From: Crotophaga sulcirostris
Taxonomy: Eukaryota; Chordata; Aves; Cuculiformes; Crotophagidae
Reading direction: 5' to 3'
DNA: 64,000 bases
Assembly: GCA_013397455.1 (NCBI GenBank)
Contig: VYZB01000030.1
Location: forward strand, 1,774,546-1,838,545
A program made the translations under genes and the position numbers. The notes beneath the pieces are model-generated. The model had not been told where the DNA came from. It did no database searches and saw only the letters and a list, made by a program, of their open reading frames with translations. Below, in pieces: positions 37,071-62,949 of the stretch. Numbering within the stretch: the first letter of the stretch is position 1; each line of letters starts with the position of its first letter.

Positions 37071-37100
37071 TTAGGGTTAGGGGCTAGGGGTAGGGTCAGG
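37071..37100 (+). repeat. Telomere-like tract, TTAGGG on plus strand
   Basis: Two perfect TTAGGG units at 37,071-37,082 followed by degenerate CTAGGGG and TAGGG units, about 30 bases in all. It marks the outer edge of the left copy of a 1.4 kb inverted repeat whose other copy ends in a longer CCCTAA tract at 47,543-47,661. Vertebrate telomeres are TTAGGG; short interstitial tracts of this kind are usually scars of double-strand-break repair or former chromosome ends. Confidence 0.75.
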
Positions 37101-38476
37101 TATAATGGGGAGAGACAACTAGGAATGTGTAATTGCTTCTATTGGCTGAGACACCTTTAAAAAAAAAAGAAAATAAAAATTTCCTGCTTTATTCCAAAGA
37201 CCTCACCGTCATTTCTTCAGAAAATGTCAGTTTCTAAGCATCTTCAGATCAAAAGAGCCATTCCTGATTGCAACAGGGTTCACAGCTTCTCAAGTTTGCT
37301 TTTACCAGCCTTCCTGTCTGCTTTCCCATGCTCAGGGCTGTTAAGCACTTCTGGTCTGCTTCTGTCTTTGACCCAAAGAGGGTTTCTTGCACCAGCAGAT
37401 GCAATATTCAAGGCAAACGCAGGAGGACAGAGGTGCAGCCCACAAAAATCAATCCTCCCAAAGCCTCTGCAGAAAGCGGCAGGGAAGAAGCTCTCAGGCT
37501 ATTGGTAGGGGAAAATGTTGGAGCCCATAGGAAAGCACGTCAAGAGTCGATGTTTCTGACATGGACCTATAAAGGACAGGAACAGCCCAAGCTTGAAGGT
37601 CTGCAGAGCTGGGTCTCCCTGCAGCATGTGTTTGGTAAGGAGTGGGGACACAGTCTCAGAGAGACTTTTGTTTTCCATCTCTCTTGGCCTCTCCCCCTCA
37701 GATTCTGGTTGGGTTGTCATTCTCATTTCCTTCTTCACCCCTGATTTTGCTGACGCAGGTTAGAGACCTGATGGACCATCGAGGTACTGACACCACTTGC
37801 GCCTGTGAGGTTCGTGAGTCACCCTCATTTCACAGCTTAAAGGACTGCTGACGCTGATGCCCTCAGAAAGGGCACTTCGGGAGGAACATCAATACATTTG
37901 AAACCGTGTCGGCACTCAGCAGCAGCAGCAGGCTTTGTGCACGCTGGTTTGTTATTGTAGGGTCTCCTGCGTGCACCAGGTTTGTGGTTGTAGGGTCATT
38001 TTTTACTTTAGGGGAAGGAATCGGAGTGGAAGATTGCTTGACCTACCTGGTTCACTCATGCAGAACTGCTTTGCAGCACAGGGTCAAATTAAATTTGTCA
38101 GAACACTTTCATCACAAAAAGAAATTATGGCCAAAAGACATTTTAAATATGGACAAGAAAAAAAGTACAACAAAACCCCACAGATATACAGTCCAATGGA
38201 GAGAAAAAAATTGACATTATTGTTTTAAAATTCCAAGGGCTTTTGGACTCTCACACTGAAAAGTGATCTAAGCACTAAAAGCAGTAGGACCTTGGCAGGA
38301 TAAATGGACTTGAACTTGGACCAGTTATCCTAAAGTGCCCGGTGTCAGCAATGCAAATGGTGGTGTAGGAGATCAGGAAGGGGAGGGAACCTGCAGGCAA
38401 GGAGAGGAGGCAAAGTGGAAGTGGCTGCCCCAAGGACCAGCACACCCAGTAGACGAAGGTTGCCCACTCATAGAGT
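37101..38476 (+). repeat. Inverted repeat A, left copy (partner 46,175-47,542)
   Basis: The sequence is repeated in reverse complement at 46,175-47,542 with very few differences. The frame at 37,906-38,214 (102 codons) translates identically in the other copy. Homology starts just inside the telomere-like tract and stops abruptly near 38,476. The open frames in it resemble no family I know and their content does not suggest a conserved protein; near-identity reflects recent duplication. On the minus strand an AATAAA-containing segment near the telomere-like edge is followed by A/T-rich sequence, so a retroelement origin is possible but unproven. Confidence 0.9.
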
Positions 38477-39663: not shown

Positions 39664-39868
39664 CTGTCCTACTGATGATGTTGACACCATCTGTAAATCA
39701 AGGTGGTTTTCCAGCCAGACCATGAGCTACAAACAGGGGAGGATCAGCAGGCCAGTGGGAATGCCTTGTTTTCCTCAGGACAGCTGCTGGATCTTATAAT
39801 CAGGACTATCTGATGCACTGATGTCATGCTAGTAATGGTATAACTGTATCAAACTAACGGCACAATGG
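39664..39868 (+). repeat. Duplicated block X1 (inverted partner 57,227-57,420)
   Basis: About 200 bases matching the reverse complement of 57,227-57,420 with scattered substitutions. In the partner arm this block is joined directly to the equivalent of 44,741 on one side and to the CR1 sequence equivalent to 49,430 on the other. Short matching bases (ACAAT; CTG) lie at the two junctions. Confidence 0.85.
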
Positions 39869-44740: not shown

Positions 44741-46117
44741 TGCTGTTCTGCAGAGGGGAGCGCTGGGTCTGACACAAATGGGCTGCACTGGTCATTTGGA
44801 AAAGGCAGGGAGGGCAGGGCAGCAGCTTACAAATACGCAGAACCAGATTTACTGATTAGCACATGGCTCCGATTTCCTCCAGTGCTTCCAGAAAAGCAAT
44901 AGGCAATATTAACAAAAGGATTACTCAGAATTCAAAAGCAAATGGGATTTGTGACCCATTATATTAACCGGGGACTGGGGAAAGCTCTACAGAGAGAGAA
45001 CGCTGCCAGCAGGTCACCAAACCAATTATTAAGAGCTCACAGATCACCAAGCTAGATATATACACACATCAAGATAAATTTCCATTTGCCTGCAGAAGCA
45101 GGATGCTGGCTGAGCCACCCTCCCAACCCACTGTGCTTTTTTTAAGGTGCCCATTAAACCGGGATTATATCCAGTTCCTTTCCCCAGTAATTCACTTCCC
45201 CCACACGTTTAATACTGTGGAATAACGTTTGGGAGGGCAAAACCTGAAAGGAGAAATGTATATAGACATAATTGCTTTGAGAGAGGAGAGAGAGCAGAGA
45301 GCAGGCAGGCAGCACGTGGTGGGAGCAGGCCAGCAGTGCACCCTCACCCCTCACACTGCTCATTGCCCTCCTTGCAGCAGCGCTGGCCCACCCTGACTAA
45401 CCCTTCCTATTTCAGTGGAGCAACAACCCTGGGTCTCTGAGCACTGCCTATCAAGTCCTGCCAGAGGACTTTATACCCCTCCAAGACCTGTTAGGGAAAA
45501 GCAGCCTTGACAGCAAAGCTGTGTCTGGAACCACCTGAAGGAGCTTCCTGCTGGCAGCATTTTGTACTCAACTCACAAATTCCTGGCTTTGCTCCTTCAG
45601 GGTTTGGTGTTAAGAATTGGGTGTTCTCAGCACAGCTCCTGGAGCAATTTTACCCTGAGCCCAACTTTCCCTGTAACCCCCCTTCTCTTATATCTCTTCT
45701 TACCTTTGCAGAGATTCACTCTAGTGTTGCCTTCCACCTGCCCCATTCTGCTTCCTTCCAAGATGCTGCTTATGTCAAAATACAGGGCTGATGACACAAG
45801 GGAGGAAAACGTGTCCTCAAAAGACAAGGATGAGTTCTGATCCACTCCTACCTCTGCTGACCTCAGCGTGATTTTCCACATCATTTTCTGCTGTGTCCCT
45901 GTGCTGCTGTGAGCAGAACACCCCACACCACATCCCCTGCAGGCAGCTGAGCACAGCAGGAATGGGCAGCACTTGCAGAAACCCCAGGCACTGCCAGAAA
46001 AATCCCAGAAAAATAAGACAATGTCTTCCATCACAAGCACAGGAACATGAACAGAACAAAGGCAAGCGATTGACACTGCATTTCTTCTCCTACAGGTTTT
46101 CAGAGAGCAGGAAGCAG
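44741..46117 (+). repeat. Duplicated block X2 (inverted partner 55,653-57,226)
   Basis: The reverse complement of 55,653-57,226 matches this block closely; one 69-codon frame (45,154-45,363 minus versus 56,601-56,810 plus) differs at a single residue. The right copy carries about 190 extra bases at 55,693-55,883. No protein or RNA function is recognised. Confidence 0.9.
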
Positions 46118-46174
46118 TGAAGTCCATGGCTCCAGCAGCCTCCCCGGCTCTACATGTATTTATCTTGAGTGCTA

Positions 46175-47542
46175 CTCTAGGAGTGGGCAACCTTCACCTA
46201 CTGGGTGTGCTGGTCCCTGGGGCAGCCACTTCCACTTTGCCTCCTCTCCTTGCCTGCAGGTTCCCTCCCCTTCCTGATCTCCTACACCACCATTTGCGTT
46301 GCTGACACCGGGCACTTTAGGATAACTGGTCCAAGTTCAAGTCCATTTATCCTGCCAAGGTCCTACTGCTTTTAGTGCTTAGATCACTTTTCAGTGTGAG
46401 AGTCCAAAAGCCCTTGGAATTTTAAAACAATAATGTCAATTTTTTTCTCTCCATTGGACTGTATATCTGTGGGGTTTTGTTGTACTTTTTTTCTTGTCCA
46501 TATTTAAAATGTCTTTTGGCCATAATTTCTTTTTGTGATGAAAGTGTTCTGACAAATTTAATTTGACCCTGTGCTGCAAAGCAGTTCTGCATGAGTGAAC
46601 CAGGTAGGTCAAGCAATCTTCCACTCCGATTCCTTCCCCTAAAGTAAAAAATGACCCTACAACCACAAACCTGGTGCACGCAGGAGACCCTACAATAACA
46701 AACCAGCGTGCACAAAGCCTGCTGCTGCTGCTGAGTGCCGACACGGTTTCAAATGTATTGATGTTCCTCCCGAAGTGCCCTTTCTGAGGGCATCAGCGTC
46801 AGCAGTCCTTTAAGCTGTGAAATGAGGGTGACTCACGAACCTCACAGGTGCAAGTGGTGTCAGTACCTCGATGGTCCATCAGGTCTCTAACCTGCGTCAG
46901 CAAAATCAGGGGTGAAGAAGGAAATGAGAATGACAACCCAACCAGAATCTGAGGGGGAGAGGCCAAGAGAGATGGAAAACAAAAGTCTCTCTGAGACTGT
47001 GTCCCCACTCCTTACCAAACACATGCTGCAGGGAGACCCAGCTCTGCAGACCTTCAAGCTTGGGCTGTTCCTGTCCTTTATAGGTCCATGTCAGAAACAT
47101 CGACTCTTGACGTGCTTTCCTATGGGCTCCAACATTTTCCTCTACCAATAGCCTGAGAGATTCTTCCCTGCCGCTTTCTGCAGAGGCTTTGGGAGGATTG
47201 ATTTTTGTGGGCTGCACCTCTGTCCTCCTGCGTTTGCCTTGAATATTGCATCTGCTGGTGCAAGAAACCCTCTTTGGGTCAAAGACAGAAGCAGACCAGA
47301 AGTGCCTAACAGCCCTGAGCCTGGGAAAGCAGACAGGAAGGCTGGTAAAAGCAAACTTGAGAAGCTGTGAACCCTGTTGCAATCAGGAATGGCTCTTTTG
47401 ATCTGGAGATGCTTAGAAACTGACATTTTCTGAAGAAACGACAGTGAGGTCTTTGGAATAAAGCAGGAATTTATTTTTTTTTTTAAAAAAAGGTGTCTCA
47501 GCCAATACAAGCAATTACACATTCCTAGTTGTCGCTCCCCGC
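46175..47542 (-). repeat. Inverted repeat A, right copy
   Basis: Reverse complement of 37,101-38,476, nearly identical. The homology ends at 46,175 next to about 58 bases not seen elsewhere, then block X2. At its other end it passes into the CCCTAA tract. It lies exactly between duplicated block X2 and the duplicated promoter block, so it looks like DNA copied into a break junction from the locus 9 kb upstream. Confidence 0.9.
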
Positions 47543-47661
47543 TATCCCTAACCCTATCTCTGCCACTAAAAGTAACCCGACCCTAACATTAAATCCTAAT
47601 CGTACCGTGAACAACGGTAACACAAACCCTAACGCTAACCCTAAGCACTAAACCCTGAACT
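47543..47661 (-). repeat. Degenerate telomere-like tract, CCCTAA on plus strand
   Basis: About 120 bases of imperfect CCCTAA units: ATCCCTAACCCTATC, CGACCCTAACATTAAATCC, AACCCTAACGCTAACCC, AAACCCTGAAC. It begins where repeat A ends and stops within about ten bases of the position corresponding to the intron 1/exon 2 boundary of MRPS11 in the inverted promoter copy. It is clearly longer than the matching tract at 37,071. Confidence 0.85.
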
Positions 47662-47809
47662 ACACAAGAAAGAAACAGGAGCGCGCGGTGAAAGACGCCG
47701 GGGTGGCCGCAACGCTCTGCCCGGAGCGCGGGGATCCCGCCCCGGTCCCTCCCACCGCCTCCGCTCACGCCCAGGCCGCCGCGAGCAGCCGTTGCCAAGC
47801 GACCGCCAT
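47662..47809 (-). pseudogene. Relic of MRPS11 exon 1 and intron 1, antisense upstream of MRPL46
   Basis: On the minus strand this reads a start codon in the CCATGG palindrome at 47,806-47,811, then [14 protein letters not shown], then a conserved GTGAGC splice donor. The true MRPS11 exon 1 at 58,952 reads [13 protein letters not shown] with the same donor. Intron-1 sequence continues, with several substitutions and a gap, to a TTTCTTGTGTAG acceptor-like end, after which MRPS11 exon 2 is replaced by the telomere-like tract. It therefore cannot make uS11m. It is the MRPS11 side of a duplicated bidirectional promoter and may still drive an antisense transcript. Confidence 0.85.
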
Positions 47810-47888
47810 GGCGGCTCCTCTTTTCCCGCCCTCTCGCCGCGAGGCACGCTGGGATGGCGGTGGAAAGATGGCGGCGCGGGGCAGCTTC
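47796..47888. promoter_or_regulatory. Bidirectional promoter copy serving MRPL46
   Basis: GC-rich, CpG-rich sequence with an E2F-like TTTTCCCGCC at 47,821-47,830 and a YY1-like AAGATGGCGGC at 47,865-47,875. YY1-type ATGGCGGC sites near the first codon are common in vertebrate mitochondrial and ribosomal protein promoters. A near-homologous block stands upstream of MRPS11 (58,790-58,951) in the opposite orientation. No TATA box is visible. The transcription start is not determinable from sequence. Confidence 0.6.
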
Positions 47889-50800
47889 ATGGCGGCTCCC
47901 GCGAGGTGGGGCCGCTGGTTTTGTACCGCCGCACCTCGGCCCTGGCGGCTTTTCGGGGCCGTGTGCTTGCTGAGGCTGCCCCGCATCACGCAGCCCCTCG
48001 AGAAGGAGGAGGAAGAGATGGCGGCTCTCATGGAGCAGGTAGAGAGGGGACGGGAAAAACGGATGGCTGGGGGGGGGGGGGGAGCGTCCGGTGGGGCTGC
48101 CAGTCCAGGGGAGACCTTGTAGAGACCTCCCAGTACTGAAGGGGCTTCAGGGAAGCTGGGGAGGGGCTTTCTACAAGGGCATGGAGTGACAGGACGAGGG
48201 GAATGGCTTTGAACTGGAAGGGGGCAGATTTAGATTAGACATGAGGAAGAAATTCTGCAGGATGGGGCTGGTGAGGCCCTGGCACAGGTTGCCCAGGGGA
48301 GCTGTGGGTGCCTCCTCCCTGGAGGTGTTCAAGGCCAGGTTGGATGGGGCCTGGAACAGCCTGGGCTGGTGGGAGGGGTCCCTGCCCATGGCAGGGGGGT
48401 GGGACTGGGTGGGCTCTGAGGTCCCTGACACTGAAAATGCCAGCAAATAAACTCGTAAGACTTGTTTTGTACCAGCCTTTATTTCAGCGCAGGGCACAGG
48501 AGGGAAAGCTTCCCATTTGTTGTGTGCAACGAGACGAGAGCTGGAGACAGAATTTATATCCAGCTGACATGCTGGTATCAGTTCTCCCAGCAATCTCATG
48601 CACATTCTACTACTTTCCAAGGACTGATCTTAACCTTATGTTGAACTTCACAACAGCCAAGTCTCTGCTCCTTAGAGCTTTGAAGCCAGTTCTCTGTCCA
48701 GCCTTGCATTCTTAGACAAGGGAAGAAGTATTGTCTGGGAACAGTGCTAGTTAAAAAACAGATTGTCAGAGGAACAAGCTGTGTCTGCATAACTTTCAAA
48801 AATACTGCCACTTAGATATCGCTGAATTAAGTTAGAAAACCAGTTCTACAGAAAACCAACTCTACTTAAGCCAAAGCTTTCCACTCTCTGCAATAAGAAC
48901 CACTTCTTGTATCATCCCTTCCAACTCAAACCATTCTGTGATCAAGGGTCTTGGTAGCGCTCCTGTGGGCCATGAAGCAATGCTGGGGGCTCTGTGTACA
49001 CCTTTCTGTCTGCACCAGGTATCCTGTGTCGTGGTAGCGCTCCTGCGGTCTTCCCTGATGTTGCCAGAGCTCCAGATACAGACTCCTGCTAGGAGCAGGG
49101 AAGTCCTGCTTGAGCTCAGAGAAATTTTGTTGCCCAGGGCTCAGTGCTGGGTCTGGTTCTGTTCAAGGTCTTTATGAATGATCTGGATGAAGGGATTGAG
49201 TGCACACTCAGTAAGTTTGCAAATGACACTAAGCTGGGTGGACGTGTGGATCTGCTTGAGGGTAGGGAGGCTCTGCAGAGGGATCTGGACAGGCTGGATC
49301 CATCAGCCAATGCCATCTGTGTGAGGTTCAACAAGACCAAGTGCTGGGTCCTGCACTTGGGACACAACAACCCCAGGCAGTGTTACAGACTGGGGAAGGG
49401 TGGCTGGAGAGCTGCCTGGCAGAGGACCTGGGGATGGATCTTGGATGAGAGCAGCTGAATATGAGCCAGCAGTGCCCCAGGTGGCCAAGAAGGCCAATGG
49501 CATTCTGGCTAGTGTGGCCAGAAGGAGCAGGGAAGTGATTGTGCCCCTGTATTTGGCATTGGTGAGGCCACACCTCGAATCCTGTGTTCAGTTCTGGGCC
49601 CCTCTCTGCAAGAGGACATTGAGAGGCTGGATCGCATCCAGAGATAAACAACGAAGCTGGTGAAGGGGCTGGAGAACAAGTGTTGTGATGAGTGGCTGAA
49701 GGAACTCGGGTTGTTTATTTTGGAGAAGAGAAGGCTGAGAGGGAGACCTTCTGGAAGGGAGTTGTAGCAAGGTGAGTGTTGTCTCTTCTCCCAAGTGACA
49801 GGTGATAGGATGAGAGGAAATGGCCTCAAGTTGCACCAGGGGAGGTTCAGACTAGACGTCAGGAAAAATTTCTTCCCTGAAAGGGTTCTCAGACACTGGC
49901 AGAGGCTGCTCAGGGAGGTGCTTGAGTCACCGTCCCTGGAGGTGCTTAAAAGACAAGTAGATCAGATGCTCAGAGATATAGTTTAGTAGTAGGTACTGTT
50001 GGACTCAATGATCTCAAAGGTCTTTTCTAACTAAACGATTTTATGGCTCTGTGAGATTCCCATCATTTTGTATTCACTGAGTTAGAAGTTATTTCATTCT
50101 GCTTGCCAAGTCCACCCCACAGTGCTGGCGCCTTAACAATTCTCTGTGTTGCCCTTCTAGATAGAGCTGGAGAAAAGCCACTATTCAGATCATGAACTCC
50201 GCAAGATGCAGGAGGAGGAGCAGCTCAGGAGGAGGAAGGAAAGCGCCTACGATGATGAGGATGAAGCACCTGGCAAAACGGTCATCATGGCTCAAGATCT
50301 GGAGGACAAGTGGGAACAGAAGTTCCTGCAGTTTGAATCTGCTCCACGGATAACAGGTACAGGCTGAAATTCATGGTGGGTATGAACACCTCAGTCATGT
50401 GCCAGACACAGCTGAGTGCAATTCAGTGGAGGGGAGGCATTTGCTGACTCTTTTTTGTTGTAATGAGGGTCTTGACTCTGGTAGCACATTATTGCATGAG
50501 GGATTAACTGGCTGTCATGGGAACCTATGTTGCTATGCTATGAAGTATGTGTTGACATGACCTTATTGGAGCAAAGTGGTGAAAATGGGTGTTGTTTCCA
50601 GACAAGAAGAACCTCAAGTCACTTGGTTCCCAAGCTCCCCTGGGGCTCTTGTTGATTTTTGACAAGCTGGAGATCCAGGCTGCTTCCTGTAAATTCCCTT
50701 TGGAAATTAAACGGGTAGGGTGCAGTCTAGCAGTGGGTTCCAGCTGAATCCTGCATCGGCTTCCAGAACAGCTAAGAGCATTTCCCTCTAGATTTTTGTC

Positions 50801-52050
50801 TTGTTCCACATATCCATGTTTGTGCATTATTGGTGGAAGGGTGTGAGACAAAGAGGGGTGATGAATCATGGGGATCAGACCAGTGCTGCTAGGAGGCTTT
50901 GTTTCCAGCATGCATTGGTTTTGGTTTTGTTTTTTTCCAGATGCTGATAAAAACAACAATCGAACGTCGTTGAACAGGAAGCTGGACAGTAACCTGATGC
51001 TTCTGGTGAAACAGAAAATTGGTAACCAGGAGCTGTGGCTCCTACCTCAAATGGAATGGCAGCCTGGAGAGACACTGCGAAGCACCGCTGAGCGAGCCAT
51101 GACTACGTTTTTGGGTGTGTAGTTTGCTGTGTGCCTGGCTCTCCCACCTCTTAGTCCCATTTTTTTTTATTTCCCTGCCTAAGGGATATTTACTTTCTGT
51201 TGTAGTGAAATTGCCTCCTGTCTTTTGGGAAAAGACAGTGGGATGGAGCTCAGTGGGGTGGGCTTTCAGGTAAGAGCCACGATGCTGGGTCATTGGCTCT
51301 GTAACTGTGCACCATCGCAGAATGACTGCAGCGTGCGGGGGCTGACTGAGCTGGCAGACTGTGTGTTGGGATCTCTGGCTGCCAGCAGCTGCAGTGCCAG
51401 GTTTGGCCCTCACAGTCTGACGTTGGAGCATTACTGGATGCCCCCTGAATGGTCTGGGCTTGTTCCAGGTGTATGGCCTCTCTTTCTCTCTGTCGCCCTG
51501 TGACAGCTTTTGTGACAGGTGGGTGATGGTAAATCCACGTGTCTTTGCTTTTCGCTGTGGGTTGGCAAAGCTCAATCCTCTCTCACTCGAGGACTTGCTG
51601 GACTCTAGGACAAGTTCTTTTTTCATGAGAAAAGGCTTACAATAGGCAGTACTTCTGCTAAGAAGAGTGAATAGTCAGTCTGAACCACAAAGAGCAGCTT
51701 ATGCTGCCATTTTGTTACTACAGGAGAGAAGTTACTGTTTCTCTGTGTTCTTATGTCTTGTTTCTTTTTTCTTTCTCTTGCATTGCGGGCATCTTGCAGG
51801 AGATCACATTCAAGCCAAAGTCCTGGGGAATGCACCATATGGGATTTACAAGTATAAATTCCCCCGGGCCATCAGGACTGAGGATAATGTGGGAGCCAAA
51901 GTATTCTTCTTCAAAGCCTTCCTTCAAAGCAATGATTTGTCCCAGGCAGAGCTGAATGGAGATTACCTGTGGGTCACAAAGGACGAGCTGGGAGATTACT
52001 TGAAGTCTGAATACCTGAAAAAAGTCAATCGATTCCTTCTGGACTTATAA
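47889..52050 (+). CDS. MRPL46: Mitochondrial large ribosomal subunit protein mL46
   Basis: Four coding exons: 47,889-48,038, 50,161-50,356, 50,941-51,114 and 51,800-52,050, all with GT-AG introns and consistent phases, giving 256 residues (human protein about 279). The product is mL46, a structural protein of the large subunit of the mitochondrial ribosome. It has a Nudix-like fold without known catalysis; [12 protein letters not shown] is the degenerate Nudix-helix region. Family-typical segments are [73 protein letters not shown] and [17 protein letters not shown] [17 protein letters not shown] near the C-terminus. The arginine-rich start ([12 protein letters not shown]) fits a mitochondrial targeting peptide and aligns with the mammalian MAAP start; in-frame ATGs at 47,868 and 47,808 would add 7 or 27 residues. 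Intron 1 contains CR1 and an LTR. Unlike in human, the gene points the same way as MRPS11. Confidence 0.95.
48070..48082. repeat. Oligo-G run in MRPL46 intron 1
   Basis: About 13 consecutive G just inside intron 1, a potential G-quadruplex or sequencing-difficult site near the promoter. The exact length may be unreliable. Confidence 0.7.
48125..48425 (+). mobile_element. CR1 LINE 3' fragment, interrupted by an LTR
   Basis: Plus-strand CR1 3' end: GGCACAGGTTGCCCAGGGGA, CTGGAGGTGTTCAAGGCCAG and CATGGCAGGGGGGTGGGACT are standard CR1 tail words. The element is cut at 48,425 by a solo LTR and resumes at 48,915 with TCCCTTCCAACTCAAACC and the final ATTCTGTG. It lies in MRPL46 intron 1 in the sense orientation. 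Confidence 0.9.
48426..48914 (-). mobile_element. Solo LTR of an endogenous retrovirus, 489 bases
   Basis: It begins TG and ends CA on either strand and is flanked by a four-base duplication, TCCC, at 48,422-48,425 and 48,915-48,918. This splits a CR1 tail cleanly. Read on the minus strand it has a TATA-like TATAAAT near 48,553-48,559 and an AATAAA signal at 48,478-48,483 about 80 bases downstream, the expected LTR order. A four-base duplication is typical of gammaretrovirus-type integration. No internal viral genes are present, so it is a recombination remnant. Antisense to MRPL46. Confidence 0.88.
48915..48938 (+). mobile_element. CR1 3' tail after the LTR insertion
   Basis: Resumption of the CR1 tail, ending with ATTCTGTG, the CR1 terminal eight-base motif. 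Together with 48,125-48,425 it is one element split by the LTR. Confidence 0.85.
49134..50056 (+). mobile_element. 5'-truncated CR1 LINE in MRPL46 intron 1
   Basis: Reads as the C-terminal half of a CR1 reverse transcriptase: [20 protein letters not shown], then FANDTKLGG, then later [19 protein letters not shown] and [17 protein letters not shown], with frameshifts and stops after about 49,458. It ends in the CR1 tail near 50,056. The catalytic motif normally FADDTKLGG has Asn for the second catalytic Asp, so this copy is inactive apart from its truncation. The first 300 bases are duplicated in inverse orientation at 57,420-57,720. Confidence 0.93.
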
Positions 52051-52214
52051 TTGATAGGCTGTGCTCCAGCAGACAGGGAAGACGTGGGACATGGCTCCAG
52101 GGAGGAGCACAGCTGCTGTTTTTTATCGTTTGTGTGTATGAAATGTTCACTTGGGCTTTGGAGGATAATTTGCCTTTGCCTTATTTACCCGTTCTCGTCA
52201 CTGGGCCTGTACTA

Positions 52215-52220
52215 AATAAA
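52215..52220 (+). terminator. MRPL46 polyadenylation signal
   Basis: A canonical AATAAA about 165 bases after the MRPL46 stop codon, in an AT-rich context. It gives a short 3' untranslated region, as usual for this gene family. Confidence 0.75.
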
Positions 52221-52229
52221 TATTAAAAC

Positions 52230-55200
52230 TTATACTAGGAAGTGGAGCTCTCCTCCAGGAGTTCTTTGTTCTTGTTGAATCCTTCTCCACCTCTTCTAAG
52301 AGGAAGTGCATGTTGTGATCTTTTCGTCTCCCAGGTGTTCAGTTCCCGGAGGCTATGGTAGCTGGAAGGCTTGCTCTCCTCACCAGACTCCTATCATAGT
52401 CTAAAGCTCAAATGGTTTCTTCTAAGCAATGGCTAATGCTTGGTTTTGGCACCTGCTCTTTAATAAGAGCAGCACTGGAGGGTTACCTGTGTGTCTACGT
52501 GGGAACAGACTCCCTTGGACAAAGGCTCAGTCAGGTGGGCTTCTGGGGAGCTGGAAGCTGGGAGATTCATAGTTTGTTTACATTTAATCTGTGTTGGAGC
52601 TGCCTCTGGCCTAGACTCTGTGATACATGGTGCCATACGGATGGAGGACATGGATGTGTGAGGAATAGGCAGCAGCTCGCTCTGTAGGTGAGTGCTGCTT
52701 TCCCACCTGTGCTGCCCTCATCTTGAGCCTCAGGCTGCAGCAACAGATGCTGAAGGAGGGGGTAACGCCTGAGCAGCAGCTCTCTGTCTGGGTTGAGGCT
52801 AATTTTTTGCTGAAGGGGGAAGGCTGCTCTAGCATTCCTGCCTCTTGGGAGCAGTCTCAAAGGTGGCTCTGGGGAGTTCTCAGCTCCCATTCCCAGTGTG
52901 TTAGGCCAGCACTGCCAACTGAGCCTGACTGGGTCCACCTCAGGTAGCCTCACCCTATTAACCCCATTTCTTTGTTAGAAGATGTATCCTGTGTTTATAT
53001 GGTCCCATCTCACCTCTCTGAGGCTCATACTATTTCTTGGAGGTTTTTTTCTGGTTGTAAATGTTGCTGTTTGGTAGTCAGAGTGTGGGCCCTGTGCTGG
53101 CTAAACCCTGCAGAGAATCACCCTTCTTCAGCGGCAGGGAGAGAGGGAGGAAATAGCTGTCGTTAATCACTAGGAGAGAGTTCAGCCTCCAGAGCTGGAA
53201 CTGGAGATTGCTGTGTATATTTTATCAATCCTTTGGGAGCTGTTGAGCTGCAGGCCTCAAATTAAAGCTATCCTTAATCACTCCACAAGCCATTGGGATG
53301 GGAGGGTAGCACAGGAGCCTTCTATTTTCTAACGCTGGGCAGTTTGGGAGCTGCAGACTTGTCATAAATTACCAACAAAACAAAACTTGGTTTTCTGAAG
53401 CACCCTCACAGGCCTGGCAAGGAGACTGTGTCTGCAACAGAGCAAAGAGGAAATAAATGCGGAGCAGAATATGTGCCTGAAAAACTGCAGATTTTTTGGC
53501 TGCTGTCTGAGGTCAGCACGGCTGAAGGGGACACAGTTGACTTCTCCAGGACTGAAAGCTCCTGCAGAGGGGAGAGGCGAGTCCTTCCACTCAGGCTGTA
53601 CCCCACCAGCTGGGGGGCAGGGGTGCAGCCAGCTCAGGCTTTTCTGTGCCACTTAGTTTCAGGCTCTCGCTGGCTCCATAGCACAGAGCACCTGAGCATA
53701 GCTTTGTGGGCACAGGCTTAGGGCACGCTTTTTGCCAAGGTTGGTGCCCCACTTCCAATGCCAAAGGCAGGTTGTGTGTTGCTGGAACAAAACTTTTAAA
53801 GCATATAAAATGCTGTTTAATTGGTGCTTATTTGTTCTCAAAATTGCTCTACTGAGAGCTTGCTGATCTTCAAACCCAGGCAGTTCTTATTCTCTGGTTT
53901 ACTCAAACTACAAGTCTTTGGGCATTGTCTGTGCTGAGAGGGGTGTAGCTCCCTCCAGCAGTGGAAAGGTCAGAATTAACATTTATTTCCTTGGGCTTAG
54001 GCCTTTGTTCTTACAGGTAGCAGTTGTGTGAGAAGGTGGGTCTTTTCTGGAAGCCGAAACTGTTGTTTTCTCATCACCTGAAACACAAACTCCTGCTTGC
54101 CGCCTGCATAGGAACCGCAGGGGTTTTTTCCCCCCCTGCAGTTGATTTTATTTAAAAACTCTCAGCCAGTTGCTGCAAACAATCCCAGATCCTGAAACTC
54201 GAGTGCTTTTGCTCAGTTCTTCTGTGTGGCCTGGTCCCCCCTCTCTGGCCTAGAAGGCAGAAGAACATCATGCAGGTTTCCTAGTGGGAGAGGATAGTTT
54301 GTATCTTCTGGGAATAGAGAGGAAATGAGAAGTCCCGCAATAGATCACTGAGGCTTTTCCTTTGAGAACTTGGTAGCTGCGGGCTGTCTTTCCACTCAGT
54401 GCAAACATATATCCGTACTCTTTGCAGAGTTGCAGAAGTCTGATCAGGCAGGCTGGTGGGATATATTTTGCCAGTATCTACTGAAAGGACAGCACAAAGC
54501 CTGGAAACCTTTTCTGAGAGAGCTCTTCTCTCTCTTAAAACAGAAGAAATCTGTCGAGTTGTAGCTGAGAGAGAGCTGCCACAGCCGTGGTGTGCAGCAC
54601 AAGAGCAGGGGAGCATTGCTCTTGTGGTGAGCATGAAACACAAAACTCCTTGCAAAAGTGACTGTGACCTGCATGAGTGTTCGCTTGGATAATGGGGGAG
54701 TCTGGAATTCATTTGCACCCAAAACCTGGAGTGTTTTTCTCACCTTGGCAAAGGTCTGCTCACACGAGACATCTCTACCAGAACCTGAAGGCGCAGCAAG
54801 TAACCTGTGAAGGCACAGTGTTTGCTGGGGCTCTTTGGAGAAAGGCACTGTTGGATCAATCAAAAAGCTCTCCTGTGAAGTGGAGAGAGGCGTTTTGGAA
54901 AGGAAGTGTGTGACTCCTTGCTTTGAGAGCAGCAATGTGGGGCTCATCTAAGAAGTCCAACATAAGATCAGAGCTGCAGCTGCTGGGGACAGCATCTGAG
55001 CACTATCTTCCCCCAGCTGCACACCTCGGGGAGGAAGCTGGAGAGCAGTCAGACTGCAGACAATTTCTGCTCCTCAAGGCCATTTCTTAACATAGGACAC
55101 TTCCATTCATGAGGGTGATACACAAAAGCCAGATCCTTCCCTCCTCCAAGGGGGAAGGAGGCATATCAAGTTGACCTTTCCCTGGTGTCATGCAGTCCAG

Positions 55201-55652
55201 CAGCTACTACTAAAAGCCTCCAGGAGCAGAAACAAATGGAAGGATCAGTTGCAGACCAAAACACCAGCATCTAAGCTGTTTCTTAAGCCATGATGTTAGA
55301 AGAGAGAGATGAAGGCTTTCTTTTTAACAAATTGATGCTAGCACTGCCCTCCAGCAAAGGAGAGATAACAAGACCCCTTTTCAGCTTCACAAATATGGCT
55401 TTCCTCTACATCCCCTACAAAACTGATATCCTTCCCTGTCTGCAGGAGTTTGGGGGATTGGTGCTCTCTAAGCAGAGCCCTGCTAGCATATTTTGTAATG
55501 CAGTGTGAACTGCTCAGAACCACATGCTTTCTCACATAATAGGAAGCTGCTGTTTGTTGCTCCCCCTGGCTGGCTCCAAACAACCAAAGGCTTCAATATT
55601 TGGAAGATAAATACATGCAGAGCCAGGAGAGGATGCTGGAGTGATGGGCTAC
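52230..55652. other. Non-coding DNA downstream of MRPL46, single-copy in the window
   Basis: No gene, RNA or mobile element is recognised. Under the inversion model this belongs to the flipped segment and was originally located on the far side of MRPL46, away from MRPS11. The sequence continues into block X2' at 55,653 without a visible junction scar, as expected if that boundary is ancestral. Confidence 0.5.
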
Positions 55653-57226
55653 ACCGCTTCCTGCTCTCTGAAAACCTGTAGGAGAAGAGATGCCATTACC
55701 CCCAAATACAGCTGTGAGCCTGTTAGGGCTGGGAGAGTTGCTCTGGTACAGGGAACACCCTGTGGGATTCCTCCCTGCTGGGGCAAGAGATGGGCTGGCT
55801 CAGGGAGGGTAAGAGTTAGGCTATCTCAGCTGTGACAGCCCATGGACTCACCCATTGTCCCAGAGGATAAGATGGTCCAGTAGCATCGGTCGCTTGCCTT
55901 TGTTTTGTTCATGTTCCCGTGCTTGTGTTGGAAGACATTGTCTTATTTTTCTGGGATTTTTCTGGCAGTGCCTGGAGTTTCTGCAAGTGCTGCCAGTTCC
56001 TTCTGTACTCAGCTGCCTGCAGGGGATGTGGTGTGGGGTGCTCTGCTCACAGCAGCACAGAGACACAGCAGAAAATGGTGTGGAAAATCACGTTGAGGTC
56101 AGCAGAGATAGGAGTGGATCAGGACTCATCCTTGTCTTTTGAGGACACCTTTTCCTCCCCTTTCCTGTGACATCAGCCCTGTATTTTGATATAACCAGTA
56201 TCTTGGAAGGAAGCAGAATGGGGCAGGTGGGAAGGCAACACTAGAGTGAATCTCTGCAAAGGTAAGAAGAGATATAAGAGAAGGGGGTTACAGGGAAAGT
56301 TGAGCTCAGGGTAAAATTGCTCCGGGAGCTGTGCTGAGAACACCCAATTCTTAACACCAAATCCTGAAGGAGCAAAGCCAGGAATTTGTGAGTTGAGTAC
56401 AAAATGCTGCCAGCAGGAAGTTCCTTCAGGTGGTTCCAGACACAGCTTTGCTGTCAAGGCTGCTTTTCCCTAACAGGTCTTGGAGGGGTATAAAGTCCTC
56501 TGGCAGGACTTGATAGGCAGTGCTCAGAGACCCAGGGTTGTTGCTCCACTGAAATAGGAAGGGTTAGTCAGGGTGGGCCAGCGCTGCTGCAAGGAGGACA
56601 ATGAGCAGTGTGAGGGGTGAGGGTGCACTGCTGGCCTGCTCCCACCACGTGCTGCCTGCCTGCTCTCTGCTCTCTCTCCTCTCTCAAAGCAATTATGTCT
56701 ATATACATTTCTCCTTTCAGGTTTTGCCCTCCCAAATGTTATTCCACAGTATTAAACGTGTGGGGGAAGTGAATTACTGGGGAAAGGAACTGGATATAAT
56801 CCCGGTTTAATGGGCACCTTAAAAAAAGCACAGTGGGTTGGGAGGGTGGCTCAGCCAGCATCCTGCTTCTGCAGGCAAATGGAAATTTATCTTGATGTGT
56901 GTATATATCTAGCTTGGTGATCTGTGAGCTCTTAATAATTGGTTTGGTGACCTGCTGGCAACGTTCTCTCTCTGTAGAGCTTTCCCCAGTCCCCAGTTAA
57001 TATAATGGGTCACAAATCCCATTTGCTTTTGAATTCTGAGTAACCCTTTTGTTAATATTGCCTATTGCTTTTCTGGAAGCACTGGAGGAAATCGGAGCCA
57101 TGTGCTAATCAGTAAATCTGGTTCTGCGTATTTGTAAGCTGCTGCCCTGCCCTCCCTGCCTTTTCCAAATGACCAGTGCAGCCCATTTGTGTCAGACCCA
57201 GCGCTCCCCTCTGCAGAACAGCAGCT
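55653..57226 (-). repeat. Duplicated block X2', inverted copy of 44,741-46,117
   Basis: Close match to the reverse complement of the left block, interrupted only by about 190 extra bases at 55,693-55,883. The AT-rich and gene-free character is the same. It is part of the right arm of a complex inverted repeat. Confidence 0.9.
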
Positions 57227-57420
57227 CCATTGTGCCGTTAGTCTGATACAGTTTTACCATTACTAGCATGACATTAGTGTATCAGATAGTCTTGATTGTA
57301 AGATCCAGCAGCTGATCCAGGGCTTTCCGACTGGCCTGCTGATCCTCTCCTGTTTGTAGCTTGTAGTTTGGCTAGAAAGCCACCTTGATTTACAGACAGC
57401 GTCAACACCATCAGTAGGAC
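57227..57420 (-). repeat. Duplicated block X1', inverted copy of 39,664-39,868
   Basis: Here the block is directly contiguous with X2' at one side and with CR1 sequence at the other. At the CR1 side the shared bases CTG sit on the junction, which is otherwise free of filler. Confidence 0.85.
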
Positions 57421-57744
57421 AGGTCCTCTGCCAGGCAGCTCTCCAGCCACTCTTCCCCAGTCTGTAACACTGCCTAGGGTTGTTGTGTCCCAAGTGCAGG
57501 ACCCAGCACTTGGTCTTGTTGAACCTCACACAGATGGCATTGGCTGATGGATCCAGCCTGTCCAGATCCCTCTGCAGAGCCTCCCTACCCTCAAGCAGAT
57601 CCACACGTCCACCCAGCTTAGTGTCATTTGCAAACTTACTGAGTGTGCACTCAATCCCTTCATCCAGATCATTCATAAAGACCTTGAACAGAACCAGACC
57701 CAGCACTGAGCCCTGGGCAACAAAATTTCTCTGAGCTCAAGCAG
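57420..57744 (-). mobile_element. CR1 LINE fragment, inverted copy of 49,106-49,430
   Basis: Minus-strand CR1 reverse-transcriptase fragment with the same FANDTKLGG variant as the copy in MRPL46 intron 1. An 84-codon frame antisense to it is identical in both copies. It ends abruptly at 57,420 where block X1' begins. The copy is a relic of MRPL46 intron 1 left beside MRPS11. Confidence 0.92.
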
Positions 57745-57935
57745 GACTTCCCTGCTCCCAGCAGGAGTCTGTATCTGGAGCTCTGGCAACATCAGGGAAG
57801 ACCGCAGGAGCGCTACCACGACACAGGATACCTGGTGCAGACAGAAAGGTGTACACAGAGCCCCCAGCATTGCTTCATGGCCCACAGGAGCGCTACCAAG
57901 ACCCTTGATCATAGAGTGGCTTGGGTCACAAGGGC
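57745..57935 (-). repeat. Inverted copy of MRPL46 intron 1 segment 48,915-49,105
   Basis: Continues the duplicated block from the CR1 fragment to the CR1 tail equivalent of 48,915. The words TAGCGCTCCTG and GGTATCCTGTGTCGTGGTAG occur in both copies. No function is recognised. Confidence 0.85.
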
Positions 57936-58725
57936 TGATACCGAAAATGCCAGCAAATACACTCTCTTAAGGCTCCTTTAGAGTTTCAAAAAGCGTAATA
58001 CATAAATAAAAGTTTTGCTTCAGCCAGATCGTAATAGTTGAAATAAGTAGGTGGTTAGAAAGAATGTAAGTTTTCCAGTACCCAGTTAAGGGGAGAGGAG
58101 ACCGGAATTAGACAACCTTATGGAGAATGGGATTTAGCAAGGTGTGAATTGAGACAGGGAGTCACTGTGTCTAGGATGGAATTCAGCAAAGCTGTATATT
58201 AGAACTAACTGTCTAGATAATGCTCTCCTAACAAATGTAAATTAATTACGGGAACTCAGTTGAACATGTATAAGTGCCCCAAATAAATGTACATGTGCTG
58301 GACCAAACAGTGTGCATAGGGGAGGGTCCATCCCCTTATGCACCTAGCACTGTGAATGTATTTCTTTGCTTCTAAGACATTGTCCTCTCTACAATTATAC
58401 CCATGAGCTGGATTTTCCCACAGAAAATTATGTCTGTGAGCTGCCTTTTCTCCCAGAAAGCAGCAGCCTTTATTTCAGTGCTGGGCACAGGAGGGAACGA
58501 TTCCCATTTGTTGTGTGCAACGAGACGGGGGGACAGAATATATATCCAGCTTACATGCTGATATCAATTCTCCCCGCAATCTCATGCACATTCTACTACT
58601 TTGCAAGGACTGATCTTAACCTTATTTTGAACTTCACAACAGCCAAGACGCTGCTCGTTAGAGCTTTGAGGCAAGTTCTCTGTCTGGCCTTGCATTCTTA
58701 GATAAGGGAAGAAGCACTTTCTGGG
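57936..58725 (-). mobile_element. LTR related to the 48,426 solo LTR, truncated and enlarged
   Basis: The first 30 bases and the region from about 58,463 to 58,725 match the left LTR, in the same window orientation. On the minus strand the AATAAA signal lies at 58,469-58,474 and a TATA-like stretch at 58,537-58,546. About 495 bases at 57,967-58,462 are absent from the left copy. The far end (the start of U3) is missing: homology stops at 58,725 inside the relic of MRPL46 exon 1. No viral coding sequence is seen. Confidence 0.82.
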
Positions 58726-58729
58726 CTGG

Positions 58730-58953
58730 CAGACGCGGCCGGGGTCCCGGGAGCCCCAAAATGCCGCCAGGGCTGAGGCGCTGCGGTACAAAACCACCAT
58801 AACTCTCTCCCCTGCCGCCATCTTGGCGCCGGCATGCCTCACGGCGCGAGGGCGGGAAAAGAGGCACCGCCGTGCGTCTCCCCTCGCCGCCATCTTTCCG
58901 CCGCCATCCCAGCGTGCCTCGCGGCACGAGGGCGGAAAAAGAGGAGCCGCCAT
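58730..58953 (-). pseudogene. Relic of MRPL46 exon 1, antisense upstream of MRPS11
   Basis: Minus-strand reading from the CCATGG at 58,950 begins [20 protein letters not shown], matching the upstream frame of the true MRPL46 exon 1 at 47,808 ([20 protein letters not shown]). The match continues through a TTTTGTACCGC segment and CCCTGGCGGC to near 58,760. It is then lost, and LTR sequence follows, so the exon 1 splice donor and the rest of MRPL46 are absent. There is also an extra or diverged stretch with a second YY1-like site. It cannot encode mL46; it is the MRPL46 side of the promoter copy that stayed with MRPS11. Confidence 0.85.
58790..58951. promoter_or_regulatory. Bidirectional promoter copy serving MRPS11
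   Basis: CpG-rich sequence with YY1-like GCCGCCATCTT at 58,814-58,824 and 58,886-58,896 and E2F-like GGCGGGAAAA at 58,851-58,860, all inverted relative to the copy at 47,796-47,888. No TATA box. It abuts the MRPS11 start codon, so the 5' untranslated region must be very short or within this block. Confidence 0.6.
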
Positions 58954-61900
58954 GGCGGTCGCTTGGCAACGGCTGCTCGGGACGGCCTGGGGGTGAGCGG
59001 AGGCGGCGGGAGGGAGCGGGGTGGCTCCCTTCGCCCCAAGCTGATCGCACGGGACACCCCGGCGTCCTTCACCGCTGTTTGTTTTTCCCGCAGGGGCCGA
59101 GCTGCCGCGCTGTGGTGCCGCGGCCTGCGGAGCGGCCTCCAGAGGCCGCAGGAGGTGGCGGAGGGCGCCAAGAAGGCTGAGAGCGAGAGCGCGGGCGACC
59201 TGAGGTGAGCCGGCCCCCTCGCTGTGCGGCTGTCGTAGGATCAGGGGAGCGTTTGGTTGGGAAGGACTCCTGAGGAGTTTTTTTTTTAATCTTTTCTCCA
59301 GCTCTATCTAGAAGGGCAACGCACTTTTAAGGCGCCAGCACTGTGCGGTGGGCTTAGCAAGCAGAATTAAGTAATTTTTAACTCGGTGAATGCAAAATGA
59401 TGGGAGCTTCACAGAATCAGAGAAGGGTTTGATTGGAAAGGAGTTTTGAGATTATTGAGTCCAGCCATTCCTGTCCACTGCTAAACCAGATCCCTGGGCA
59501 TCTCGCCTACCCGTCTTTTAAACACCTCCAGGGATGTTGACTCCACCACTGCCCCAGCCAGCCTCTTTCAATGCCTGACCACCCTTTCAGGGAAGAAATT
59601 TTCCTGATACCTAATCTGAACCTCCCCTGACACCATTTCCTCTCATCCTATCACCTGTCACTTGGGAGAAGAGACCAACACTCACCTCACTACAACCTCT
59701 TTTCAGGGAGTTGTATCCAGTCATAAGGTCTCCCTTCAGCCTCCTCTTCCCCAGGCTAAACAACCCCAGCTCCCTCAGCTGCTCCTCATAAGCCTTGTTC
59801 TCCAGCCCCTTCACCAGCTTCATTGTCCTTTATCACTTGCAGCAGCTTTTCAGCCAAGGAGGGAAAGCAAGTGACTTGACTCAATCGCAGACATAGCTTG
59901 TGTCTTTTGGAGACTTGATCCTTTATTTCTTTCCCCATGTGAAATAAAGCTTTGCAAAATTTAAAGTGTGTGACCCTGTTAACTGTTGTTTTGCTCCTCA
60001 GCCCTTTAATACTGCAGAGGAGCTCCATGAGATGGGATGGAAAGATCTACGAGGAGATCCCAATAGCTCACATCAAAGCTACGTACAACAAGTAAGCAAA
60101 CAAGCTGCTCCATTCCTGCTGTCACGCAAAGCAAAAGCTTATAACACACCCAAGCTTTGGCCAGTCAGCATTTTGGTCAAAAGGAAAGAAGTCAGAGGAG
60201 TGGTTTTCATGGCTGGGAAGATAATAATACTGGCTCCAACTCTCAGTGCCATCCAGGAAACATATGTGTCCTTACAGTGCCTTTAATGGCAATAAGGTTG
60301 CTGTTATGTTTTGCCTGCATTCTGATATGAATAATTAGATGCTGATGGCTTTAATGGCAGGTTACTTCCAGCCCTCTGCTCTAGTGCTACTCCTATGCAG
60401 CTGCTGAAAAAATTGTGATATTCTCCATGAGAGATCTTGTGTTTCATTAGTGATCCCTGGTGTCATATTTTACTGTTTCTTAAATGGTTTGTGCAATTTT
60501 TTCTAGAAATGGTTTGTGCAATTTTTAATAAACAGTAAAAGCTGTAAATGCCCACAGCAAGAGGTGGGCCTGGAAGGGCTAAGCAGTATCCGAGGTATAG
60601 CTGATGAAGGATACCTTATCCAGAAAGGTCTTGCCACCACCCTCAGATTCTCTAGGGTGACCCAGAAGGTCACAGCTGGGTTTGTGTAAGTGGGATTCCT
60701 CGAAAGAGAGTGCTCAGTTAAGGTGGCACAGGGAAGGGAGACAGGATTCCTGTCACAAACTCTGCCAGTGAGCTGAGCGAGAAAAAACTGGAGAGTAAAG
60801 CTTTGTTCTTGCTCGCTGCTTTCTTTAGCCTCTCTCTTTCCATAGCACCCACGTCCAAGTGGTCAGCTTTGACAACAGGCAATTTGCCCACACGTCCTGC
60901 GGCACAGAAGGCTTCCAGAATGCCAAGAAGGGAACTGCCATCGCGGCGCAGACCGCAGCCATGGCAGCTGCAGTGGTGAGTGAGTCCGTGCTGCTGATTC
61001 CCACCCTCCCAGCAGCCCAGAGCTCTGTTCCTTTCTGCTCGAGCAGCGCACCTGTGTGCTGACAGTTTCCCTCACTTCATCTGACGCAGTGCCCCTCTTC
61101 ACACTGACAAGGTGTGTTCAAAGCAGCCGTTAGAAATGCCCAGATGGGGAGCTTCGCTGTGCATGTTGTGATTGGGAAATGCAACTTGGAGCCTAGCCTT
61201 TCCTAGCTCCTGTTTGCATAGCTCCGTTTTTTTGGTTTTTTTTAAGGGAACATCTCTGTCAGTTTGGAAATACAGCCCCTGAATCAGCAGCAGTTCAATT
61301 TTTGCACTGTAGGGGACTGAGAAGCAGCTGTAATTACTGGCTGAATGTTTTACATTTGCTCTCTGCCACAGGAGAACTGAGCTGCTGCCAGCAGTTCCAG
61401 TCAGAGAAGGCGATGTCCTTGCAGGTGTACTTTCCAGCTGCATAGAGTTTACTGTAATTGTTCCTAAAAAAACACGTGGGTGTCCTGGTGGCAGGAGAAG
61501 ATGAGGCTGGCTGTGTTGTAGTCCTCATCACAGCAGAATGAGGCAAGTTTAAACTGAAAATCCTCATCCTAAATTAGACGGATATATATAACTCCAGCCT
61601 TTCATGTCAGAGTAGTGTTTGGTGCCACTGCTGGCTAACAGCTCTTTGTGTTTGATTTAGAGGAATATAAGAACATCTTCACTATTAATCTGTGTTCATT
61701 GGAGCCTCATAATAGCTGCATAACTGTGCTTGGCCAGGTTCATTCTGTCACGGTTAAAAGTTGTTAGTACATTAATTGCACCAGAACGTGGAAACCCAGA
61801 GGCCCAGAGGAGTTCCATCCACTTGGTGGCAGCACGCCTATGCTTTACAGCAGGTGGTTTTCACTTTCAATTTGCAGGCCCCTAGAATTTTTGCACTGAA

Positions 61901-62949
61901 GGTGTGGACTCCTGCACAGCAAATAAAAAGCTTGCCTGCTTTTCTGATTTACCTTCTAGAAGGAATCCACTGATGACAGGAGAGAAGTGGCTGTATTAGA
62001 GAAAGGAAAACAGCTTTGAGTTAGTGCTTGTTAGTCCCCTGCCAGTTCAGTCATGTATCCATGGATGTGTTATTTTCTGCCCTGGCTCTGGGTCACAGAT
62101 AGTTTGATCTTGAAGCTTTCTCTGTATGCAGAGCTGACAGCATGGCACAGAAGTTCTCTTGAAGTGCCATGGCTGGATCCCAGCCTCCTTTTCTCCTAGA
62201 GCCTTTGTGCAATAATCCCTGTACTCATCTTCTGGATCCATTACTACCTGCTCTTTAATTTTATTTAAAGAGTACTGTGATAGTGTGTCAAAAGGGAACA
62301 AAAGACTCCAGGGGAGCCAGAGCAGCAGCAGTTATATCGAAGAGAACACTAACCAGTTATTCTTTTTGCAGAAAGCACGTGGGAAAGGTGTGTTACATGT
62401 ACGAGTCATGGTGAAAGGGCTGGGTCCAGGACGCAAGGTAGGTGTCAAGAGTTTGTTTTCATATTTCTTTTTCTCGGGCATCATCCAGGTTTTTTAAATT
62501 CAACTTGGTCTCATGACTATACCTGATAACTTGGTTTTTTTGAAGGTGATGTAAAGAATTCATCACTCAAGTGCCTAGTAATGAAATTGTAGAATCATTA
62601 GATTTTTAGAGTAATATCACTTTGGAGGCAGAGTAAAAGCCGTGTTTGGGACTTCTTCCAACTATAGTAGGAAAATCAATTGTAGTGCTGATGAAAGGAC
62701 TGGAGCAGATAATTACAAAGTAAAATCATTGGAACAAGTTGTTTCTTGGACAGGGGAGCAAACTATTTTGCCCTGAGTTTTTCCCATCTTGCTGTTCAGT
62801 GTCTTGATAACAGCATGTCTTCTGCTGTCTTGTGCTTCCAGGCTGCCATCAAGGGTTTGACTATGGGAGGTTTGGAGGTCATCTCCATCACGGACAACAC
62901 CCCAGTTCCACACAATGGCTGCCGCCCACGGAAAGCCAGGCGAATGTGA
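58952..62949 (+). CDS. MRPS11: Mitochondrial small ribosomal subunit protein uS11m
   Basis: Six coding exons: 58,952-58,992, 59,094-59,204, 60,002-60,091, 60,846-60,975, 62,372-62,437 and 62,842-62,949, all with GT-AG introns and matching phases, 181 residues in total (human about 194). uS11m is a universal ribosomal protein on the platform of the small mitochondrial subunit, where it binds 12S rRNA. The arginine-rich, acid-free start [20 protein letters not shown] fits a mitochondrial targeting peptide. The uS11 domain starts near [22 protein letters not shown], continues with [20 protein letters not shown] and [15 protein letters not shown], and ends with [19 protein letters not shown] and RPRKARRM, the conserved basic tail. 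Exon 1 encodes only 13 full codons. Intron 2 holds a CR1 fragment. Human MRPL46 diverges from this gene; here it does not. Confidence 0.96.
59405..59830 (-). mobile_element. CR1 LINE 3' fragment in MRPS11 intron 2
   Basis: Minus-strand CR1 tail beginning near CACAGAATCAGAGAAGG and including the reverse-transcriptase C-terminal words [29 protein letters not shown] and [15 protein letters not shown]. Truncated at both coding ends and interrupted by stops. Antisense to MRPS11. Confidence 0.92.
60482..60526 (+). repeat. Two-copy tandem repeat in MRPS11 intron 3
   Basis: The word AAATGGTTTGTGCAATTTTT occurs at 60,482-60,501 and 60,507-60,526, a 25-base period. Intronic slippage duplication. Confidence 0.85.

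Follow-up and report, generated by a model that had tools for sequence, protein, structure and literature searches.

The 64-kb window analysed here, a stretch of DNA from the ani Crotophaga sulcirostris, contains two mitoribosome genes, MRPL46 and MRPS11, and two inverted copies of a promoter that each carry the first exons of both genes. All results come from one assembly of one sequence, which has zero N in the window. The two genes are as follows:

47889..52050, plus strand: MRPL46 (mL46), intact, four coding exons, 256 amino acids and a stop codon (exons, splice sites, PDB match, RM46 identity)
58952..62949, plus strand: MRPS11 (uS11m), intact, six coding exons, 181 amino acids and a stop codon (exons, PDB match)

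The plus-strand exons of MRPL46 lie at 47889-48038, 50161-50356, 50941-51114 and 51800-52050, with GT...AG introns, and those of MRPS11 at 58952-58992, 59094-59204, 60002-60091, 60846-60975, 62372-62437 and 62842-62949. The best PDB match of MRPL46 is 3j7y_e, mL46 (E 3.4e-94), and that of MRPS11 is 5aj3_K, MRPS11 (E 4.8e-64). The MRPL46 protein is 100% identical over 95% of the query to the C. sulcirostris RM46 record (244 residues), which places the source in this ani or a very near relation, of the order Cuculiformes. An earlier note on this DNA had placed both genes on the plus strand in these positions; its gene ends were exact and both reading frames are intact.

Two copies of a head-to-head promoter

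Inverted and direct copies were located by self-BLAST of the window, and the pairs were then aligned and their differences counted. One copy of the promoter was found at the start of each gene:

47685..47959, no strand assigned: left promoter copy (P'), consisting of an antisense piece of MRPS11 intron 1, antisense MRPS11 exon 1 (47769-47809), a 79-base core and the start of MRPL46 exon 1 (self-BLAST, alignment, divergence, spacing)
58753..59075, no strand assigned: right promoter copy (P), in which antisense MRPL46 exon 1 survives as an out-of-frame remnant at 58753-58821 and part of the core is tandemly repeated (self-BLAST, alignment)

Self-BLAST gave an inverted match of 47685-47895 to 59075-58867 (85.3%, E 3e-54) and a second one of 47807-47959 to 58874-58753 (66%, E 3e-11). 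The homology between P and P' spans MRPS11 intron 1, MRPS11 exon 1, the core and MRPL46 exon 1. On the minus strand of P', the reading frame of MRPS11 exon 1 is followed by a GTGAGC donor and then by MRPS11 intron 1 homology, which reaches 47685 in BLAST and, by eye, continues to an acceptor-like TGTAG near 47661. On the minus strand of P, MRPL46 exon 1 keeps WFCTAAPQPWRHFGA, out of frame with its own ATG, and therefore it is no longer a working exon. The earlier note had described antisense MRPS11 exon 1 with its splice donor upstream of MRPL46, and antisense MRPL46 exon 1 upstream of MRPS11. Both are present, the second in a frameshifted form. The start codons are separated by 79 bases in P' and by 130 in P, where about 75 core bases (length by eye) are tandemly repeated at the site of the wider spacing. 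When the whole 64 kb was scanned for CpG islands in 400-base windows (GC>0.6, observed-to-expected ratio>0.7), only two sites passed the cut-off, P' and P, and each gene starts in its own island.

In both P and P' the two first exons stand back to back within 1 kb, and one exon has decayed in each. Because both copies carry both first exons in this arrangement, the head-to-head ancestry can be read from the ani sequence itself, without the human arrangement, which we take to be a divergent MRPS11/MRPL46 pair over a shared promoter. The same feature bears out the proposal of the earlier note that a formerly shared two-way promoter was duplicated in inverted orientation, and we regard the promoter duplication as well supported. 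Chance similarity was ruled out by the E values of the promoter arms and by matches reported at E 0.0 for the copied segments A, B and E described below. A retroposed copy was also ruled out, since the copies include intron sequence and promoter.

The sequence AARATGGCGGC, presumably a YY1-type motif, occurs in the window only in the promoter copies, once in P' and twice in P. Neither 47600-48060 nor 58720-59240 contains an ETS, NRF1 or CCAAT consensus. Divergence of the copies was counted for all sites and separately for non-CpG sites, and groups were compared by Fisher test. At all sites, P and P' differ less in the core and MRPS11 exon 1 (8/112) than in MRPS11 intron 1 (17/83; p 0.009), and the non-CpG sites agree (3/76 versus 10/56; p 0.015). 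The non-CpG differences of the individual pieces are 1/47 for the core, 2/29 for MRPS11 exon 1, 10/56 for MRPS11 intron 1 and 2/33 for MRPL46 exon 1. Because both genes are intact, we infer that each promoter copy still works for its own gene, and each probably now drives mainly one gene.

The ani promoter resembles the head-to-head promoters of nuclear genes that encode mitochondrial proteins in its CpG island, close start codons and YY1-type sites. It differs from such bidirectional promoters, including that of human MRPS11/MRPL46, in being present twice, with one intact gene per copy. Head-to-head pairs are thought to persist because separation destroys a promoter that both genes need. In the ani the pair would have been separated without this loss, the promoter having been copied beforehand or simultaneously, and the two copies would be free to specialise. 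A comparison of the copies, in firing direction, sites kept and co-expression, tests whether a shared promoter keeps two mitoribosome genes in step. The locus is a good natural experiment on bidirectional promoters, and at the same time a further example of an already known kind.

Copied segments around the genes

The promoter is not the only sequence present twice. The other copies and inserts, in order along the window, are:

37077..38476, plus strand: B, headed by TTAGGG-like repeats at ~37071-37105 (self-BLAST, sequence)
39664..39868, plus strand: c (self-BLAST)
44741..46166, plus strand: A, left-hand copy of the sequence at the far end of the presumed moved block (self-BLAST; core 99.1%, edges 94.6% and 89.9%)
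46174..47569, minus strand: B', inverted copy of 37077-38476, between A and P' (97.8%; body 98.7%, end stretches 96.0% and 93.0%)
47541..47660, minus strand: degenerate telomere-like (CCCTAA) repeats separating B' from P' (hexamer near-match count and reading)
48425..48907, plus strand: insert in MRPL46 intron 1 resembling a long terminal repeat (LTR), TGACAC...GTATCA with TCCC on either side, by eye (sequence; direct match to the right copy)
48909..49430, plus strand: E, copy in MRPL46 intron 1 (self-BLAST)
55604..57223, minus strand: A', the counterpart of A in inverted orientation, past the 3' side of MRPL46 (self-BLAST, divergence)
57227..57422, minus strand: c', inverted counterpart of 39664-39868, abutting A' (84.9% with gaps; 22/196 differences ungapped)
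57420..57941, minus strand: E', part of MRPL46 intron 1 copied in inverted orientation (core 99.2%, 27-base tail 74%; CR1-like by eye)
57937..58731, plus strand: LTR-like piece related to the insert at 48425..48907, adjoining E' and cut short at the MRPL46 exon 1 remnant (self-BLAST; ends by eye)
59291..59837, minus strand (antisense): fossil inside MRPS11 intron 2, matching the end of MRPL46 intron 1 and running 17 bases into exon 2 of that gene (77% to 49640-50177, E 1e-115)

Along the chromosome the order is B, c, A, B', the telomere-like stretch, P', MRPL46, A', c', E', the LTR-like piece, P and MRPS11. Both ends of the MRPL46 block are duplicated in inverted orientation, giving A-P'-MRPL46-A'-P-MRPS11. 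This order is the one predicted by a staggered-break inversion, and therefore it adds support for an inversion. The core of A/A' comprises 959 bases that are 99.1% identical (9/959 differ; longest exact run 223), and the copies are 10.6 kb apart; the edges differ at 20/369 and 9/89 sites. The joint between A' and c' skips 4.87 kb relative to A and c, and the joint between c' and E' has a 3-base overlap (CAG). Between B' and the point where similarity to MRPS11 intron 1 begins lie about 115 bases of degenerate telomere-like repeats. In the 120 bases that start at 47541 there are 10 near-matches to the telomere hexamer (<=1 mismatch), which is the window maximum; the median is 1. Repeats of the TTAGGG type head both B copies and at the P' joint adjoin the end of MRPS11 intron 1, where their polarity is that expected of telomere addition to a broken end.

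The copies are not of one apparent age, as divergence at non-CpG sites ranges from 0.6% to 26% across pairs. In A, the core differs at 6/937 sites and the edges at 18/361 and 7/85 (core versus pooled edges, 25/446, p 3e-8). In E, the core differs at 4/484 and the tail at 7/27 (p 1e-7). The other values are 20/190 for c, 13/1294 for the body of B and 16/234 for the LTR-like pair. Near-identical cores that sit inside diverged homologous edges suggest recent gene conversion between the inverted copies, and such conversion could hide a single age of the duplications. The non-CpG distance of c/c' is 0.113. With an avian rate that we assume to be 2-3e-9 per site per year, this would correspond very roughly to 20-30 million years, a figure on which we do not rely.

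The fossil in MRPS11 intron 2 is 547 bases long. Its non-CpG differences are 77/385 in the CR1 part, 12/96 in the unique intron part and 0/16 in the exon 2 bases. It may be read as the trace of an earlier tandem copying made while the genes were still divergent. Judged by its divergence, it is possibly the oldest duplication at the locus.

Origin and orientation of the rearrangement

Our data indicate that a rearrangement in the ani lineage, one that duplicated the promoter, probably separated an ancestral head-to-head pair. The ancestor would have had MRPL46 on the minus and MRPS11 on the plus strand, with about 79 bases between the start codons. The rearrangement would have copied the entire promoter with both first exons, after which MRPL46 kept P' and MRPS11 kept P. 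The MRPL46 block would have become enclosed by A and A', inverted copies of DNA originally next to the 3' side of the gene. Because the start codons were 79 bases apart, a cut could hardly have spared both genes, and copying is the likely route of their separation. The arrangement may have formed as a staggered-break inversion; alternatively, template-switched copying may have taken place while the genes were still divergent, with a crossover of A and A' afterwards.

Several points weigh against this reading, beginning with the single assembly on which it is built. The MRPL46 exon 1 remnant in P is short, with 47 aligned bases at 85%. The pieces of P/P' differ by 7-20% (all sites) but the A, B and E cores by about 1%, so that a single event needs later gene conversion. 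The LTR-like pair is not oriented as a plain inverted copy would be, and A/A' could lead an assembler to flip the block. With respect to selection on the promoter, the core did not stand out from the MRPL46 exon 1 remnant (5/71 versus 7/47, all sites; p 0.22), nor significantly from the c pair (22/196; p 0.37). Because the comparison with MRPS11 intron 1 favours selection on both promoter copies but those with the exon 1 remnant and c do not, such selection is only hinted at.

It is quite possible that template-switched copying came first, while the genes were divergent, and that a flip followed. A broken end at the border of MRPS11 intron 1 and exon 2 would have been extended by telomere-like DNA and B, then by A on the opposite strand, by c, and then from MRPL46 intron 1 onward through the promoter. 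The outcome would be a tandem promoter duplication with an insert, and a later crossover of A with A' would flip MRPL46. One such pass would yield B', the telomere-like stretch, the skip from A' to c' and the c'/E' joint. The CAG overlap at the c'/E' joint and the passage from P' similarity into telomere-like repeats are in line with it, and the A core, with 959 bases at 99.1% identity and an exact run of 223, has the length and similarity that recombination needs. The fossil in intron 2 also suggests an earlier copying event here in the same orientation. However, the present orientation requires a second step, and as the joints have decayed, the 3-base overlap is weak evidence.

A staggered-break inversion alone, with overhangs filled in at both ends and B', the repeats and the 4.87 kb loss added later, is possible too, if somewhat doubtful. 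The A-P'-A'-P order and the duplications at both ends speak for it. A study of Drosophila subobscura attributes the inverted duplications at the breakpoints of inversions O4, O8 and others to staggered double-strand breaks, of which they are the mark (PMC5080602). Inverted duplications are indeed present at the ends of the ani block (A/A', P/P'). They would be expected to be of one age with nothing else copied in, but B' and the telomere-like repeats lie at the joint. Under the inversion, the A'/c' skip, B' and the telomere-like stretch would each have to be added by separate later events, and the overhangs would have to be kb-sized. In most of the D. subobscura inversions the duplicated fragment stems from one breakpoint, whereas here both are duplicated (PMC5080602). 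The proposal of the earlier note that an inversion duplicated the promoter therefore stands in part: the inverted P/P', the A/A' order and the intact genes agree with it, but B', the telomere-like repeats, the 4.87 kb skip and the fossil are left unexplained. Promoter duplication in the divergent state and a subsequent flip would fit as well. Copying and a flip would explain the joints in fewer steps, and the staggered inversion would explain the present order in fewer steps. Because the two histories differ only by the A/A' flip, they are inseparable from one sequence.

The ani locus shares with D. subobscura the inverted duplicated pieces at block ends and the truncated gene copies at breakpoints (PMC5080602). 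It differs in that the block is about 10 kb and in a bird, in that what was duplicated is a two-way promoter together with the first exons of two genes, in that both ends carry duplications (in the fly, mostly one), and in the further copied segments and the telomere-like repeats that lie at a joint. In Atlantic herring, another study describes inversions flanked by inverted duplicates that are 85-99% identical (core 95-99%), for which flips by ectopic recombination were proposed (PMC11499932). High-identity cores inside less similar inverted duplicates, as in that account, are also seen in A/A' (PMC11499932). The herring inversions, however, are Mb-sized and polymorphic by long reads, whereas the ani segment is about 10.6 kb and known from one sequence (PMC11499932).

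MRPL46 and MRPS11 appear to be co-directional, as read from one assembly of a flip-prone segment. The A/A' cores flank MRPL46 as inverted repeats of 99.1% identity, and for this reason the orientation now seen may have arisen by a later flip, may be polymorphic or may reflect a choice of the assembler. As in flips by non-allelic homologous recombination, long near-identical inverted repeats surround the segment and show signs of exchange (core 6/937 versus edges 25/446), conversion being our reading of these counts. A crossover between A and A' would produce a flipped isomer of the 10.6-kb segment in which MRPL46 is divergent from MRPS11, with the start codons 4.8 kb apart. It is rather doubtful, though conceivable on these grounds, that MRPL46 lies in a 10.6-kb flip cassette toggled by gene-converting A/A' and that anis carry both pair orders. 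If so, the divergent isomer would have two promoters between MRPL46 and MRPS11, and a single species would offer the same two genes, each with a full promoter copy, for comparison in both orders. It is unlikely that the promoter duplication is real, MRPL46 truly divergent and the A-to-A' block inverted by the assembler. Cores of about 1 kb and 99% identity at a distance of 10.6 kb leave the orientation beyond the reach of short reads alone, but the window has no N, and with the A/A' differences (9/959 in the core, 20/369 and 9/89 in the edges) it should be resolvable by reads longer than about 1.5 kb or by mate pairs. A false duplication of the arms, as a haplotype or chimeric-read artefact, is very improbable, since it could account for the ~99% identity of the A, B and E cores but not for the P, c, A edge, LTR-like and fossil pairs, which differ by 5-22%, with indels and a lost reading frame; false haplotype duplication in particular was rejected on the 7-22% divergence of the promoter, c and fossil intron pairs.

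The proposed uncoupling by a copied promoter may be placed further by protein starts. MRPS11 begins with MAVAWQRLL in both ani copies and in Cuculus canorus (P0125), and has a different start in the 7 other birds read. The shared start would place the promoter duplication on the cuckoo side, in favour of the proposed uncoupling, and leaves open which cuckoos carry the rearrangement. MRPL46 begins with MAAPARWGR in the ani and in Phaenicophaeus (P0009), where it is shorter by a few residues than the 7 other full-length bird proteins read. Shared N-terminal changes of small size are thus seen on both sides of the promoter.

Both genes presumably lie on chicken chromosome 10. The karyotype of Crotophaga ani is described as strongly rearranged, with chicken chromosome 10 fused with 25 (PMC7822047). 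An Rfam scan of the window at gathering thresholds gave 0 matches to known RNA genes. The two LTR-like pieces share a TGA[C/T]AC start, and the GTATCA end is seen in the left one. Both sit at the same point of the CR1-like tail, in opposite orientation relative to the tail.

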